A stretch of DNA of 64,000 nt from Rhodobacter capsulatus (lineage in GTDB: Bacteria; Pseudomonadota; Alphaproteobacteria; Rhodobacterales; Rhodobacteraceae). Below, in pieces: positions 19,179 through 30,674 of the stretch (position 1 is its first letter; the number at the start of each line of letters is the position of its first letter). The translations under genes were made by a program, and so were the position numbers. The stretch is from positions 135,973-199,972 of the forward strand of contig NZ_QKZO01000003.1 in assembly GCF_003254295.1 (NCBI RefSeq), written 5' to 3'. Under the pieces are notes generated by a model, which made no database searches, was not told the DNA's origin, and worked only from the letters and a program-made list of their open reading frames with translations.

Positions 19179-19254
19179 GCCGCAGCGCGCCGCCCGCAAC
19201 CGCAAGTCGCAGTTCCGGCTTGACGCGGCGGGCGAATTGGATTTGGCTTTTCGC

Positions 19255-19424
19255 GTCCAAGTTCCGGCCTGCGGGCCGGATTGAAAGGGAACGCGGAACG
19301 GCCCTTGGGCCCAGACCGCGGCTGCCCCCGCAACTGTGAGCGGCGAGCGACGTCGACATGCCACTGGGCCCGCCCGGGAAGGCCGACGCAGCCAGGACCC
19401 GCGAGCCAGGAGACCTGCTTGGAC
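19255..19424 (+). ncRNA. Cobalamin (B12) riboswitch
   Basis: All hallmark elements are present in order. The closing P1 helix is GTCCAAG (19255-19261) with CTTGGAC (19418-19424), followed by GAAAGGGA (19283-19290), GCCCCCGCAACTGTGAGCGG (about 19323-19342), GCCACTGGG (about 19360-19368) and the B12 box GCCAGGAGACCTGC (19405-19418). The class is AdoCbl-type by these sequences. It is oriented toward exbB-exbD-tonB, which begins about 355 bases later, and should switch that energy-transduction operon off when cobalamin is plentiful. Confidence 0.92.
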
Positions 19425-19778
19425 ACTCACCCTTTCCGGGGCGCGAGGGGCGCCGCGGAAGCGGCCCGTTCCGCAGAGGTGGCCCGCCGTCTGCGGAACG
19501 CCCCGGCCTTCCGCGACATCTCACCCGCCGGGCGGTTTCGCCCGACCGAACAAGGTTCGCCGATGCCGCTGTCGCCCCGCCCCTTCCGTCGCCGCCCCGC
19601 CCCTTCCGTTGCATTCCCGCCCCCGCCTGCGGTCCGCCGCGCAGGTGCGGAGCCGAAACTGGCACCGCCCTTGCCGCGGCCAATTACTTGACAAGTTCAC
19701 TCAACAAGCGCAGGAGGGGACAAAGCCAGCCCTCCGCGAGCCGCCCCCTTTCCGCCCTGAACGCCCCCGAGGTCTGCC
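19425..19778 (+). other. Long leader between riboswitch and exbB
   Basis: No convincing gene is seen in these 354 bases. They hold a 10-bp perfect hairpin, GTTCCGCAGA (19468-19477) with TCTGCGGAAC (19490-19499), lacking a T run, so it might be part of the expression platform without being an intrinsic terminator. A direct repeat of CGCCCCGCCCCTTCCGT occurs near 19575 and 19594, and TTGACA (19688-19693) has no matching -10. A 42-codon frame from ATG 19563 exists but has only a weak ribosome site. Confidence 0.5.
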
Positions 19779-27822: not shown

Positions 27823-28887
27823 TCAGGCCACGCCCGCCGCGATCAGCTGCGCCGCGATCGCCGCATAGGCCTCGGCCGCCGCGCCCGTGCCCAGGGCCAC
27901 GGGACGGCCCGCATCCCCCGCCTCGCGCACTTCAAGCGCCAGCGGCAGGGCACCAAGAAACGGCAGGCCCAGCCGCGCCGCCTCGTGCTCCACCCCGCCA
28001 TGACCGAAGAGATGCGCCTCATGGCCGCAATTCGGGCAGACATAGGTCGACATGTTCTCGATCAGCCCCAGCACCGGCAGCTTCAGCTTCGAAAACATGT
28101 CGAGCGCCTTTTTCGCATCCAGCAGCGCGATGTCCTGCGGCGTGGACACGATCACCGCCCCGTCCAGCACCGTCTTCTGGCACAGGCTGAGCTGAATATC
28201 CCCGGTGCCCGGCGGCAGGTCGATCACCAGCACATCGAGCGGCCCGAAATGGTCCCATTTCACCTGACCCAGCATCTGTTGCAGCGCCCCCATCAGCATC
28301 GGGCCGCGCCAGATCACCGCCTCGTCCTCGCGCAGCATCAGCCCGAGCGACATCAGCACCACCCCATGCGCGCGCACCGGCAGGATCGTCTGCCCGTCGG
28401 GCGAGGCGGGCTTTTCCGTCGTCCCCATCATCCGCGGCTGGCTCGGCCCGTAAAGATCGGCATCGAGCAGCCCCACCCTTTTGCCCGCCCGCGCCAAAGC
28501 CACGGCCAGGTTCGAGGCGACAGTGGATTTGCCCACCCCTCCCTTGCCCGAGCCCACCGCGATCACATGCGCCACGCCCGGAACCGGCAGGGGGCCATCC
28601 TGCGGCTTGGCGTGGCCGCCGATCTTCACCCCGCCGCCCGGCGTTTTCGACGGCCCGGCCGGGATCACCACCGACAGGCTTTTCACCCCTGGCAGCGCCC
28701 GCACCGCGGTTTCCAGAATCGGCCGCAGCGCCAGCAGCTCCGCCTCGGGCGCGCCCTCCAGCACGAAGCGCACAACCCCCGATTCGACCGCCAGCGCATG
28801 CACCAGATTGCGACCGACCGCATCCCCGCCCCCCGGCAAGGCGGTCTTGCGCAGCGCCTCCAGCACCGATTCCTTCGTAAGCGTCAT
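27823..28887 (-). CDS. mrp: Mrp/NBP35-family Fe-S cluster carrier ATPase
   Basis: Mrp (354 residues) is a P-loop ATPase that carries and transfers Fe-S clusters. An N-terminal MIP18/DUF59-type domain (residues about 1-75) precedes a deviant Walker A GSGKGGVGKST near residue 120 and the cluster-binding CPNC (YVCPNCGHEAH) near 285. ATG 28887 follows CAGGAGAGAG; the longer frame lacks a ribosome site. It is monocistronic, with repeat element B right after it. Confidence 0.95.
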   Translation of the reverse strand: MTLTKESVLEALRKTALPGGGDAVGRNLVHALAVESGVVRFVLEGAPEAELLALRPILETAVRALPGVKSLSVVIPAGPSKTPGGGVKIGGHAKPQDGPLPVPGVAHVIAVGSGKGGVGKSTVASNLAVALARAGKRVGLLDADLYGPSQPRMMGTTEKPASPDGQTILPVRAHGVVLMSLGLMLREDEAVIWRGPMLMGALQQMLGQVKWDHFGPLDVLVIDLPPGTGDIQLSLCQKTVLDGAVIVSTPQDIALLDAKKALDMFSKLKLPVLGLIENMSTYVCPNCGHEAHLFGHGGVEHEAARLGLPFLGALPLALEVREAGDAGRPVALGTGAAAEAYAAIAAQLIAAGVA

Positions 28888-29190
28888 GGCTCTCTCCTGT
28901 CGATTTGCCGGGGACTGTGGCGCATTTGCCGCGGGCTGCAAGGGGGCGCCCCCGGGCCAGGCAAGATTTGCACGATATTTGCGCGGCCCAATGTGGAATT
29001 AATCCAGTTTGGAGGCGGATTCAGGTCAGAATCCGTTATGCATTTTCCGCAAGGCAGCATTGCCCCCGCCGCCCATTGTGCAGCCGCAGCAATCGGGCCA
29101 TGTTAGCCCCAACAGCGACGGTGCACCACAGCGACAGCCGGACGGTCCGAAGCTAAACCCCAAGACGACACGAACGAAAGAACACGACCG
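28888..29190. other. Divergent intergenic region, mrp / DUF1127-sRNA locus
   Basis: No gene is seen in these 303 bases. The stretch 28965-29060 is clearly AT-richer than its surroundings (TTTGCACGATATTTGCG, TGGAATTAATCC), as expected for promoter DNA. RpoH-type stress promoters are known for the equivalent R. sphaeroides locus, but I could not identify one with confidence here. Confidence 0.4.
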
Positions 29191-29394
29191 ATGGCACTGG
29201 TCAGCGACATCCGGACGACCGAGAGCGGTTTTTCCAGCCTTGTGGCCTCGATCCGCGAGGCCTTGGCGCGGCGCAAGGTCTATCGCCAGACGCTGGCGGA
29301 ATTGCGCTCGCTGTCGAACCGCGAGCTGAACGATCTCGGCATGCACCGCTCGATGCTGACCCGCATCGCGCTGGAAGCGGCCTACGGCAAATAA
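29191..29394 (+). CDS. DUF1127 small RNA-binding protein (CcaF1-like)
   Basis: This 67-residue basic protein ends in the DUF1127 domain (YRQTLAELRSLSNRELNDLGMHRSML, residues about 33-58). In R. sphaeroides the equivalent gene (RSP_6037, CcaF1) encodes an RNA-binding protein that influences maturation of the CcsR sRNAs located directly downstream and RNA turnover. The same arrangement is visible here: hairpins with CCTCCTCCC loops start 9 bp after the stop. Transcription as one unit through to the T-run at 29738-29745 is likely. Its ribosome site is weak (AAAGAACA). Confidence 0.88.
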   Translation: MALVSDIRTTESGFSSLVASIREALARRKVYRQTLAELRSLSNRELNDLGMHRSMLTRIALEAAYGK

Positions 29395-29402
29395 GACTTC
29401 CG

Positions 29403-29473
29403 GAGACCCTCTCCTCCTCCCTGGGTCTCGGAGATCGGCGGCATCCTCTCTCCTCCTCCCTGAGGATGCCGCC
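29403..29473 (+). ncRNA. CcsR/cuckoo-type sRNA, unit 1 (two CCUCCUCCC hairpins)
   Basis: Hairpin 1 has stem GAGACCC (29403-29409) with GGGTCTC (29423-29429) and loop motif CCTCCTCCC at 29413-29421. Hairpin 2 has an 11-bp stem GGCGGCATCCT (29437-29447) with AGGATGCCGCC (29463-29473) and the motif at 29452-29460. The gap between them is 7 bases. The loop resembles the 16S anti-Shine-Dalgarno sequence and could pair with GGAGG in mRNAs. Confidence 0.85.
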
Positions 29474-29508
29474 ACCCCATACCGGCCCCATCTGCCGGAA
29501 ACCGGATC

Positions 29509-29577
29509 AAGCCCCTCTCCTCCTCCCTGGGGCTTCGATAGAAGACGGCGGCCTCGTCCTCCTCCCAGAGGCCGCCG
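29509..29577 (+). ncRNA. CcsR/cuckoo-type sRNA, unit 2 (two CCUCCUCCC hairpins)
   Basis: Hairpin 3 has stem AAGCCCC (29509-29515) with GGGGCTT (29529-29535) and motif at 29519-29527. Hairpin 4 has a 10-bp stem CGGCGGCCTC (29546-29555) with GAGGCCGCCG (29568-29577) and motif at 29558-29566. The stems differ completely from unit 1 yet remain perfectly paired. Confidence 0.85.
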
Positions 29578-29596
29578 GTCTTCGACCTGATCCTGC

Positions 29597-29657
29597 CCGC
29601 CCTCTCCTCCTCCCCGGGCGGCGGAATGGTGCTGCCCACCTCCTCCCGGGTGGCACC
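29597..29657 (+). ncRNA. CcsR/cuckoo-type sRNA, unit 3 (two CCUCCUCCC hairpins)
   Basis: Hairpin 5 has stem CCGCCC (29597-29602) with GGGCGG (29616-29621) and motif at 29606-29614. Hairpin 6 has a 10-bp stem GGTGCTGCCC (29628-29637) with GGGTGGCACC (29648-29657) including two G-U pairs, and motif at 29639-29647. Confidence 0.83.
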
Positions 29658-29668
29658 GGAATACCCGA

Positions 29669-29745
29669 GGCCCTCTCCTCCTCCCTGGGCCGAGGTTAGC
29701 ACGGCGGCGCTCTCTCCTCCTCCCTGAGCGCCGCCGTTTTCTTTT
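29669..29745 (+). ncRNA. CcsR/cuckoo-type sRNA, unit 4, with transcription terminator
   Basis: Hairpin 7 has stem GGCCC (29669-29673) with GGGCC (29687-29691) and motif at 29677-29685. Hairpin 8 has an 11-bp stem ACGGCGGCGCT (29701-29711) with AGCGCCGCCGT (29727-29737) and motif at 29716-29724. Only this last hairpin is followed by a T run (TTTTCTTTT), so it doubles as the Rho-independent terminator of the whole DUF1127-sRNA transcript. Confidence 0.87.
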
Positions 29746-29820
29746 GGGCCGCCCGAAGGCGGGGGGCCCTGCCCCCCGGCGCTGACGCGCTCCCCCCGGC
29801 GTAGTTGCACCAAGAAAAAG
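29746..29820. repeat. Intergenic repeat element, copy C
   Basis: GGGGGGCCCTGCCCCCCGGC (29761-29780) forms a GC hairpin, followed by CGGCGTAGTTGCACC and AAGAAAAAG (to 29820), an inverted and slightly degenerate copy of the TTTTTCTTGG...CAAATACGCC core. It lies between the sRNA terminator and rlmJ. Confidence 0.6.
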
Positions 29821-29876: not shown

Positions 29877-30674
29877 ATGCTGTCTTATCAACATGCCTAT
29901 CACGCCGGAAATCTGGCCGATGTGCACAAGCATGCGCTGCTGGCGGCGCTGCTTGACTACATGACGCGCAAGGACAAGCCGCTCACTTACATGGAGACCC
30001 ATGCCGGGCGCGGGCTTTATGCGCTTGACGGGGCCGAGGCGGCGAAGACGGGCGAGGCGGCGGCGGGGATCGCGCGCGCCGAGGCCGAGCGCTGGTTTGG
30101 CGCCGATCACCCCTACAGCCGGGCGCTGGCCGCGGTGCGCAAGGATCACGGCCGCGCCGCCTATCCGGGCTCGCCGCTTCTGGCGGCGACGCTGCTGCGG
30201 CCGGTGGATTCGCTGCAGCTGTGCGAGCTGCACCCGCAGGAATTCGCCGCGCTGAAGGCGGCGATGGCGGCGCATGGCGGGATCTTCCATCAAAAGGACG
30301 GGCTGCAGATGGCCTTGGCGATGTGCCCGCCGACGCCGCGGCGCGGGGTTCTGCTGATCGATCCCTCGTGGGAGGTGAAATCGGATTACGAGACCGTGCC
30401 GAAGCTTGTGGGCCAAGTGGCGCGCAAGTGGAATGTCGGCGTCATCGCGCTCTGGTATCCGATCCTGGCGCCCCAAGTGGCGGTGGCCCCGGCGCAGCGC
30501 GCGATGGTGCGCGCCGTGATGGCCGATCACCCCGAGGCGCTTTTGTCCGAGGTGCGGTTCCCGCCAGCGCGCGAGGGCCACGGGATGGTGGGCTCAGGCA
30601 TGGTCGTGCTGAACCCGCCCTGGGGCCTGGCCGAGGAAGCGGCGCGGATCGGGCGCCGCTTCGCGAAGCTTTGA
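29877..30674 (+). CDS. rlmJ: 23S rRNA (adenine(2030)-N6)-methyltransferase
   Basis: RlmJ (265 residues) methylates A2030 of 23S rRNA. The family N-terminus MLSYQHAYHAGNLADVHKHA is exact in style, followed by the SAM-binding THAGRG near residue 41. The catalytic motif, usually DPPY, reads DPSW here (LLIDPSWEVKSDYE near 161), a variant seen in some homologues. ATG 29877 has GGGAGG 7 bases upstream. Confidence 0.93.
   Translation: MLSYQHAYHAGNLADVHKHALLAALLDYMTRKDKPLTYMETHAGRGLYALDGAEAAKTGEAAAGIARAEAERWFGADHPYSRALAAVRKDHGRAAYPGSPLLAATLLRPVDSLQLCELHPQEFAALKAAMAAHGGIFHQKDGLQMALAMCPPTPRRGVLLIDPSWEVKSDYETVPKLVGQVARKWNVGVIALWYPILAPQVAVAPAQRAMVRAVMADHPEALLSEVRFPPAREGHGMVGSGMVVLNPPWGLAEEAARIGRRFAKL

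Follow-up and report, generated by a model that had tools for sequence, protein, structure and literature searches.

A CcsR-type hairpin array behind a DUF1127 gene in the Rhodobacter capsulatus group and its possible link to the PHB-sensing repressor PhaR

The array of eight hairpins found behind a DUF1127 gene of Rhodobacter capsulatus is a known kind of small RNA (sRNA) cluster (CIN1/CcsR, “cuckoo”), and it is real, conserved, and new in the R. capsulatus group. Very probably, this CIN1-type locus (located in a 64,000-nucleotide stretch of DNA, hereafter the window) gives a single transcript from an RpoH-like promoter, with a CcaF1-like gene and four anti-Shine-Dalgarno (anti-SD) sRNAs that are probably cut apart by RNase E. 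By analogy with characterized relatives, from which the sigma factor, the processing, the stress induction, and the target silencing are all taken, transcription would start at the promoter TTGTGC-N17-CATGTT and end at the last hairpin, the transcript carrying the CcaF1-like DUF1127 gene and four CcsR-like two-hairpin sRNAs. RNase E would probably release the latter as separate molecules, and the two CCUCCUCCC loops of each would block translation by pairing with GGGAGG-type Shine-Dalgarno sequences. A known stress-sRNA locus is thereby extended to the R. capsulatus group, together with comparative evidence for its structure.

The motif CCTCCTCCC appears eight times on the plus strand between positions 29413 and 29724, and no other exact copy exists on either strand in the 64 kb of the window (8 observed versus 1.11 expected, a number reached by none of 100 shuffles). 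As stated in an earlier note on this DNA, every copy (8/8) is the loop of a stem, and the eight hairpins together occupy 335 bp (29403 to 29737). Stems of hairpins 1 to 8 measure 7, 12, 7, 10, 6, 11, 5, and 12 bp, with the 11 bp of hairpin 6 made up of 8 Watson-Crick and 3 G-U pairs, and they group as four short-stem/long-stem pairs (7/12, 7/10, 6/11, and 5/12 bp) with gaps of 7, 10, 5, and 9 bases within pairs and of 35, 19, and 10 between them. The short stems given in the earlier note (7, 7, 6, and 5 bp) were correct, but the long ones are 12, 10, 11, and 12 bp rather than 11, 10, 10, and 11; its first two gaps between pairs (35 and 19) also hold, while the third is 10 instead of 11 and one of those within pairs (5) falls outside the proposed range of 6 to 10. 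When motif copies were placed between random flanks from the window (20,000 trials), stems of at least 5 Watson-Crick pairs arose in 5.5% of the cases and those of at least 10 in 0.025%.

The four units, all on the plus strand, are located at 29403 to 29473 (hairpins at 29403 to 29429 and 29437 to 29473), 29509 to 29577 (29509 to 29535 and 29546 to 29577), 29597 to 29658 (29597 to 29621 and 29627 to 29658), and 29669 to 29737 (29669 to 29691 and 29701 to 29737). Each of them folds alone with both loops open, in agreement with the division into two-hairpin units proposed before, at z values of −5.5, −3.4, −2.5, and −4.0 for units 1 to 4 compared to dinucleotide shuffles; only in unit 3 did some shuffles (3 of 200) fold at least as well, versus none of 200 in units 1, 2, and 4. 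The motif count, the random-flank trials, and the fold z scores rule out a chance origin of the hairpins. Each two-hairpin unit would correspond to a separate RNA, and the spacer between units 1 and 2 (29478 to 29508, plus strand), which contains a small CCGGC/GCCGG inverted repeat, is from its sequence a possible processing region. The last hairpin is followed by the T run TTTTCTTTT (29738 to 29747, plus strand), a probable intrinsic terminator of the whole transcript, and no other hairpin of the array has one, just as the earlier note had claimed. A T-rich run is present at the 3′ end of the array in the seven Rhodobacter loci compared as well. The last hairpin was not reported by a terminator scan with a loop limit of 8, owing to that limit.

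The gene directly upstream of the array on the same strand, which had already been pointed out as DUF1127, is short (29191 to 29394, 67 amino acids) and CcaF1-like, as expected of a CIN1 locus. Its product matched Pfam PF06568 with 47.2 bits (cut-off of 23.3), gave no match in an NCBIfam search, and is 97% identical to its counterpart in Rhodobacter capsulatus SP108 and 96% to that of R. viridis. Whether DUF1127 proteins act via RNA or via protein partners is presented as disputed in PMC12501420. The locus is flanked by genes for an Mrp/NBP35-type iron-transfer ATPase (27823 to 28887, minus strand) and RlmJ (29880 to 30674, plus strand), and an rlmJ-like open reading frame (ORF) lies downstream of the array in the seven Rhodobacter loci compared. 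Elsewhere in the window, a cobalamin riboswitch was found at 19242 to 19436 (120.5 bits), which was the only Rfam hit at gathering threshold in the whole window.

Comparison with covariance models gave Rfam CcsR1 (RF02791) matches for units 1, 4, and 2 (50.5, 43.1, and 38.1 bits, with E values of 3.4e-11, 5.2e-9, and 1.6e-7 in the 1 kb searched), none of which reached the gathering score of 65.3, while unit 3 had no match of its own to this model. Similarly, the ar14 model (RF02344) matched twice in the window with 50.2 and 48.4 bits (gathering score of 58.8), a score that is attained by the Thioclava pacifica locus (L053, 59.7). Given these values below gathering, the units are not filed under RF02791 or RF02344. 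The CcsR1 model may be narrow. As in CIN1 loci, the DUF1127 gene is followed by several hairpins that differ in their stems and share a CCUCCUCCC loop (8/8), and the equivalence to R. sphaeroides CcsR1-4 behind CcaF1 put forward in the earlier note agrees with the arrangement described for the CIN1 locus in PMC10253847.

Scanning of genome contigs provided at least 65 named DUF1127 relatives, and 62 of the 65 listed are followed by at least two hairpins whose loop contains [CT]CCTCCC and whose stem scores ≥5; the exceptions, L070, L103, and L110, have 0, 1, and 0 such hairpins, respectively. Similar arrays were found in R. capsulatus SP108, R. viridis, R. maris, R. aestuarii, Rhodobacter sp. 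TJ_12, and Thioclava, with a number of units that differs (four here and five in Thioclava). Stem changes in hairpin 2 are compensatory among seven close Rhodobacter loci (GGCGGCATCCTC/GAGGATGCCGCC, GGCGGCACTCTC/GAGAGTGCCGCC, and GGCGACACCCTC/GAGGGTGTCGCC). An alignment of unit 1 was built from 21 of 23 loci, all from the closer genera (L039 and L040, on contigs equal in length to those of L062 and L063, were left out), in which RNAalifold gave two-sided changes at 9 of 18 predicted pairs. Using the structure derived from the window, two-sided changes affected 8 of 19 pairs in the 21 sequences, and the covariation score over both helices was 0.258 versus 0.148 ± 0.012 in shuffles; for either measure, none of 500 shuffles was as high. 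One of the five covariation measures, that of further pair types, was not above shuffles (126 of 500). Since helix 1 is out of register in this alignment, with pairing in just 64.5% of cells, it is given no weight, and the column-wise evidence for covariation comes from hairpin 2, in which 100% of cells are paired in the window-derived structure and 6 of 12 pairs show two-sided change; hairpin 1 was compared across species by eye. As for hairpin 6 (the second of unit 3), its stem is kept in three relatives (L050, L051, and L052), and the loop is altered in two of them, with no intact motif in R. maris (L050) and only TCCTCCC in Rhodobacter sp. TJ_12 (L051). Refolding ruled out that this hairpin had been lost in L050 and L051, as the stems are kept and only the loops altered. 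The compensatory stem changes between species support the selection on RNA structure that the earlier note had proposed.

Upstream of the DUF1127 gene, a block conserved across genera consists of TTTTCTGCATRGCAGCATTG, then CATTGTGCANNYGCAGCATT, and then CAT.TT. It contains the predicted promoter TTGTGC-N17-CATGTT (29076 to 29104, plus strand), which is conserved across loci and would be RpoH-like by analogy with R. sphaeroides (PMC10253847). Its −35 TTG agrees with the RpoHI/HII consensus given in PMC10673084, and the −10 CATGTT of the window is without the −12 TAT of that consensus; a consensus scan found no sigma-70 promoter. Two TGC-type dyads, both putative PhaR-like operators on the plus strand, accompany the promoter. 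Site 1 (TCCGC-AAG-GCAGCA, 29046 to 29059) has a single mismatch to [TG]CTGC-N3-GCAG[AC]A (10/11), and site 2 (ATTGTGCAGCCGCAGCAA, i.e., TGC-N4-GCA, 29075 to 29092) covers the −35 element and the spacer and matches the family consensus at 17 of 18 positions. With thresholds of at least 10 of 11 for site 1 and at least 16 of 18 for site 2, 61 of the 67 regions upstream of DUF1127 had the former (versus 2.2% of 3,350 dinucleotide shuffles), and, among the 62 listed named loci with at least two hairpins, 56 had site 1, 58 had site 2, 54 had both, and 60 had either. Within the genus, site 2 scored 17 or 18 in 13/13 parsed genomes, all of them with phaR (two of the 15 genus loci, G005 and G008, were unparsed and left out), and of the 11 positions of site 1, R. 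maris, Rhodobacter sp. TJ_12, and R. aestuarii retain only 9, 8, and 8, respectively. Seven of 18 genus genomes, the window's own not among them, have a single copy of the site-1 pattern CTGCATRGCAGMATTG; around the copy in G004 (L159), no CIN1 locus was found, and this genome is without a close DUF1127 relative. A TGC dyad is also still located upstream of the three relatives with no more than one hairpin (L070, L103, and L110), with an AAT center that fits the published PhaR consensus (RNY), and one DUF1127 gene without such hairpins (L198, genome G114) has a TCTGC-TAT-GCAGAA dyad upstream (11/11).

We give about an even chance to the proposal that PhaR directly represses the CIN1 promoter via these two TGC sites and that PHB releases the cluster, the sRNAs in turn perhaps silencing phaR in a double-negative loop. 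In Rhodobacteraceae, PHB build-up would release the DUF1127/anti-SD sRNA cluster from its PHB-sensing repressor, and the sRNAs may silence phaR, whose Shine-Dalgarno sequence in this genome is GGGAGGAG; the phaP 3′ untranslated region, ahead of phaR, contributes one more anti-SD hairpin. The resulting loop, which we infer from sequence, would join carbon storage to stress sRNAs, as NfeR1 does for NtrBC. The rival reading, in which the TGC sites belong to another regulator or to the promoter itself and PhaR is unconnected with the locus, is nearly as plausible to us, at somewhat under even odds. Published PhaR consensus sequences contain YGCRNYGCR in S. meliloti (PMC12542648) and TGCRNYGCASMA in B. 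diazoefficiens (PMC6201568), and upstream of phaP two TGC-N3-GCA dyads, one before the −35 and one in the spacer, were found in 36 of 46 phaR loci (the other 10 had no pair and were dropped; the TGC and GCA letters were fixed by the search pattern). With one site before the −35 and the other in the spacer, CIN1 resembles phaP in site placement, which speaks for PhaR. However, the third central base is C or T in 72/72 phaP sites versus 9/61 site-1 dyads at CIN1, site 2 has four central bases instead of three, and site 1 is mismatched in the window's own group (10/11) and worn to 8 or 9 of 11 in the three relatives mentioned above, all of which favors the rival reading. Because the CIN1 sites differ from the phaP sites in this way, the PhaR link is unproven.

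Genomes that lack phaR allow a further comparison. The phaR gene (TIGR01848) was missing in 9 of 395 Rhodobacteraceae genomes (≥95% complete), and five of these nine, belonging to three genera, carry DUF1127 and at least two hairpins (G020, G369, G160, G426, and G337). Neither site 1 nor site 2 was found in any of these five in the 330 bases searched upstream, while a loose promoter core (TTGTG-N17-19-NNNNTT) was kept in four of them, which speaks against the rival reading. The other four have no bearing on this test (G106 and G149 had no DUF1127 match, and G268 and G295 have DUF1127 without hairpins). Two of the listed named loci, L089 and L092, from Marinosulfonomonas metagenome-assembled genomes, lack either site as well; L092 does not differ from the locus of the phaR-less G369 in the 1,000 bases compared, and the best match of G020, which is also phaR-less, is L089. 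Some named loci and numbered genomes are in fact the same genomes, and phaR presence in the named loci was taken from the base rate (386 of 395 genomes). On the side of the rival, three genera are few and may not be independent cases (their relatedness was judged by best BLAST partners only), phaR may have disappeared along with some other gene, and both sites are kept in G114, which gave no phaR hit, even though this genome is only 84% complete and its phaR may be unsequenced. Repression by PhaR would explain both the family-wide conservation of the upstream block and the absence of TGC sites in the five phaR-less array genomes.

In the window's own genome, phaR is preceded by the phasin gene phaP (PF09361, 25.5 bits versus a cut-off of 24.9), a hairpin with the loop TTCCTCCTCCCT (L018:1490-1590; G000 contig C4 near 164266), and a terminator-like hairpin, in this order, and phaR itself, a TIGR01848 equivalog, has GGGAGGAG before its ATG. 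A hairpin with a TCCTCCC loop was located 37 to 46 bases before the CCCTTTTCTT of the terminator in 16/16 intact phaP-phaR loci of the genus (L113 to L128; L129, at a contig edge, and L130, where no phaP was found, are excluded from the count). Stems vary, the weakest (L119) having 5 pairs, one of them G-U; by chance, approximately 7% of placements would reach a stem score of ≥5. The alignment of 11 of these 16 hairpins was excluded from the pair counts. Among 28 other loci of the family, the hairpin was found in L134, L146 (two copies), L149, and L151 and weakly in L153. It is possibly a phaP-derived anti-SD sRNA. The putative PhaR operator at CIN1 and this phaP hairpin are the new part of our findings, and the earlier note had mentioned neither the TGC-box promoter nor PHB; a search of the accessible literature found neither a PhaR-CcsR link nor an anti-SD hairpin in a phaP 3′ untranslated region (UTR), which is weak evidence of novelty, and a Rhodovulum genome paper (PMC9230146) names both DUF1127 and PhaR. 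If PhaR is the repressor, CcsR-type sRNAs would belong to the PHB circuit in addition to the heat and singlet-oxygen response, with a bearing on the question of which signals act on DUF1127 proteins and their sRNAs.

Regarding possible targets, GGGAGGAG-N3-9-ATG was found 17 times in the window's own genome (3.67 Mb) versus once for the reversed control. One of these sites is antisense to the array, and one opens a 17-amino-acid ORF; the other genes include phaR and those for transketolase, malate synthase G, and a cytochrome c assembly protein, as well as six that encode proteins with Pfam domains of transport components. Any strong Shine-Dalgarno sequence should show such an enrichment ahead of ATG, which is no proof of targeting, and since such sites are common anyway, these genes are only a candidate list. 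An alternative that we regard as improbable is that the hairpins are mainly 3′-end stabilizers or processing signals, with a loop that binds DUF1127 or another RNA-binding protein instead of serving as an antisense seed. Their location in the 3′ UTR of a protein gene would fit this idea, but the loop is exactly complementary to strong Shine-Dalgarno sites, and mutation of the three identical loops of NfeR1 abolishes the silencing of ntrB, as reported in PMC10746234. An origin of the array as a repeat by-product (from hairpin duplication or transcription-termination debris) with no role in trans can be practically dismissed, since, in spite of the variable number of units (four here, five in Thioclava), stems diverge with compensation across genera while loops stay largely fixed, and hairpins follow 62 of the 65 named DUF1127 relatives listed.

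Genome-wide, CCTCCTCCC occurs 27 times, i.e., 19 times outside the array, and only two of these outside copies (in L017 and L018) are clear hairpin loops; a third, in L024, has a possible 9-bp stem with a larger, off-centered loop. Four minus-strand copies at C2:278005-278643 (genome G000) lie at multiples of 105 bases and probably belong to a 35-residue coding repeat; this cluster was ruled out as a second array, as it has no stems beyond 3 bp. At L017:1380-1560 (G000 C3:318731-318911), three GCACCGCAA(A)GGTGC hairpins precede a 15-bp hairpin whose loop is CTCCTCCTCCCT, all between ORFs that by eye resemble nudC and tadA. The same arrangement is present in four close species, with two to three copies of the small hairpin, and an Rfam search of the region gave nothing at gathering score. 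As these four species have the long hairpin with the same stem and loop, there is no covariation.

Among known systems, MmgR (alpha-r8) of Sinorhizobium meliloti is the nearest precedent for the proposed regulation; the promoter of this sRNA contains a PhaR (AniA) site (PMC12542648). It is also alike in that it bears an anti-SD motif and tunes PHB (PMC12542648, PMC7143759), but it belongs to a different RNA family, with 77 nucleotides and three stem loops of which the first contains the anti-SD motif (PMC7143759), and the accessible text of both papers mentions no DUF1127 partner. The Cuckoo RNA family, or alpha-r14 (NfeR1 and SmelA075/SmelA099; RF02344), resembles the array in having neighboring hairpins whose stems vary around a CCUCCUCCC loop, which is described as an anti-SD loop in SmelA075/099 (PMC3927594), and the translation start region of ntrB is silenced by the three such loops of NfeR1 (PMC10746234). 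According to PMC3927594, each RNA of the rhizobial members has three or four hairpins, compared to two per unit here, and NfeR1 has its own sigma-70-type promoter under the control of NtrC and LsrB (PMC10746234), unlike the locus described here. The third close system is ccaF1-CcsR1-4 of Rhodobacter (Cereibacter) sphaeroides (RSP_6037). In comparison with CcsR1, the units here score under Rfam gathering, the expression, RpoH control, and RNase E processing of their locus are predictions, and a phaR-linked promoter is not described for the R. sphaeroides cluster in the accessible literature. The two loci have in common an upstream DUF1127 gene, four sRNAs, and CCUCCUCCC loops; the R. sphaeroides transcript RS0680a has two stem loops, as in the units here (PMC3927594), and that cluster also ends in a terminator at its 3′ end (PMC10253847).
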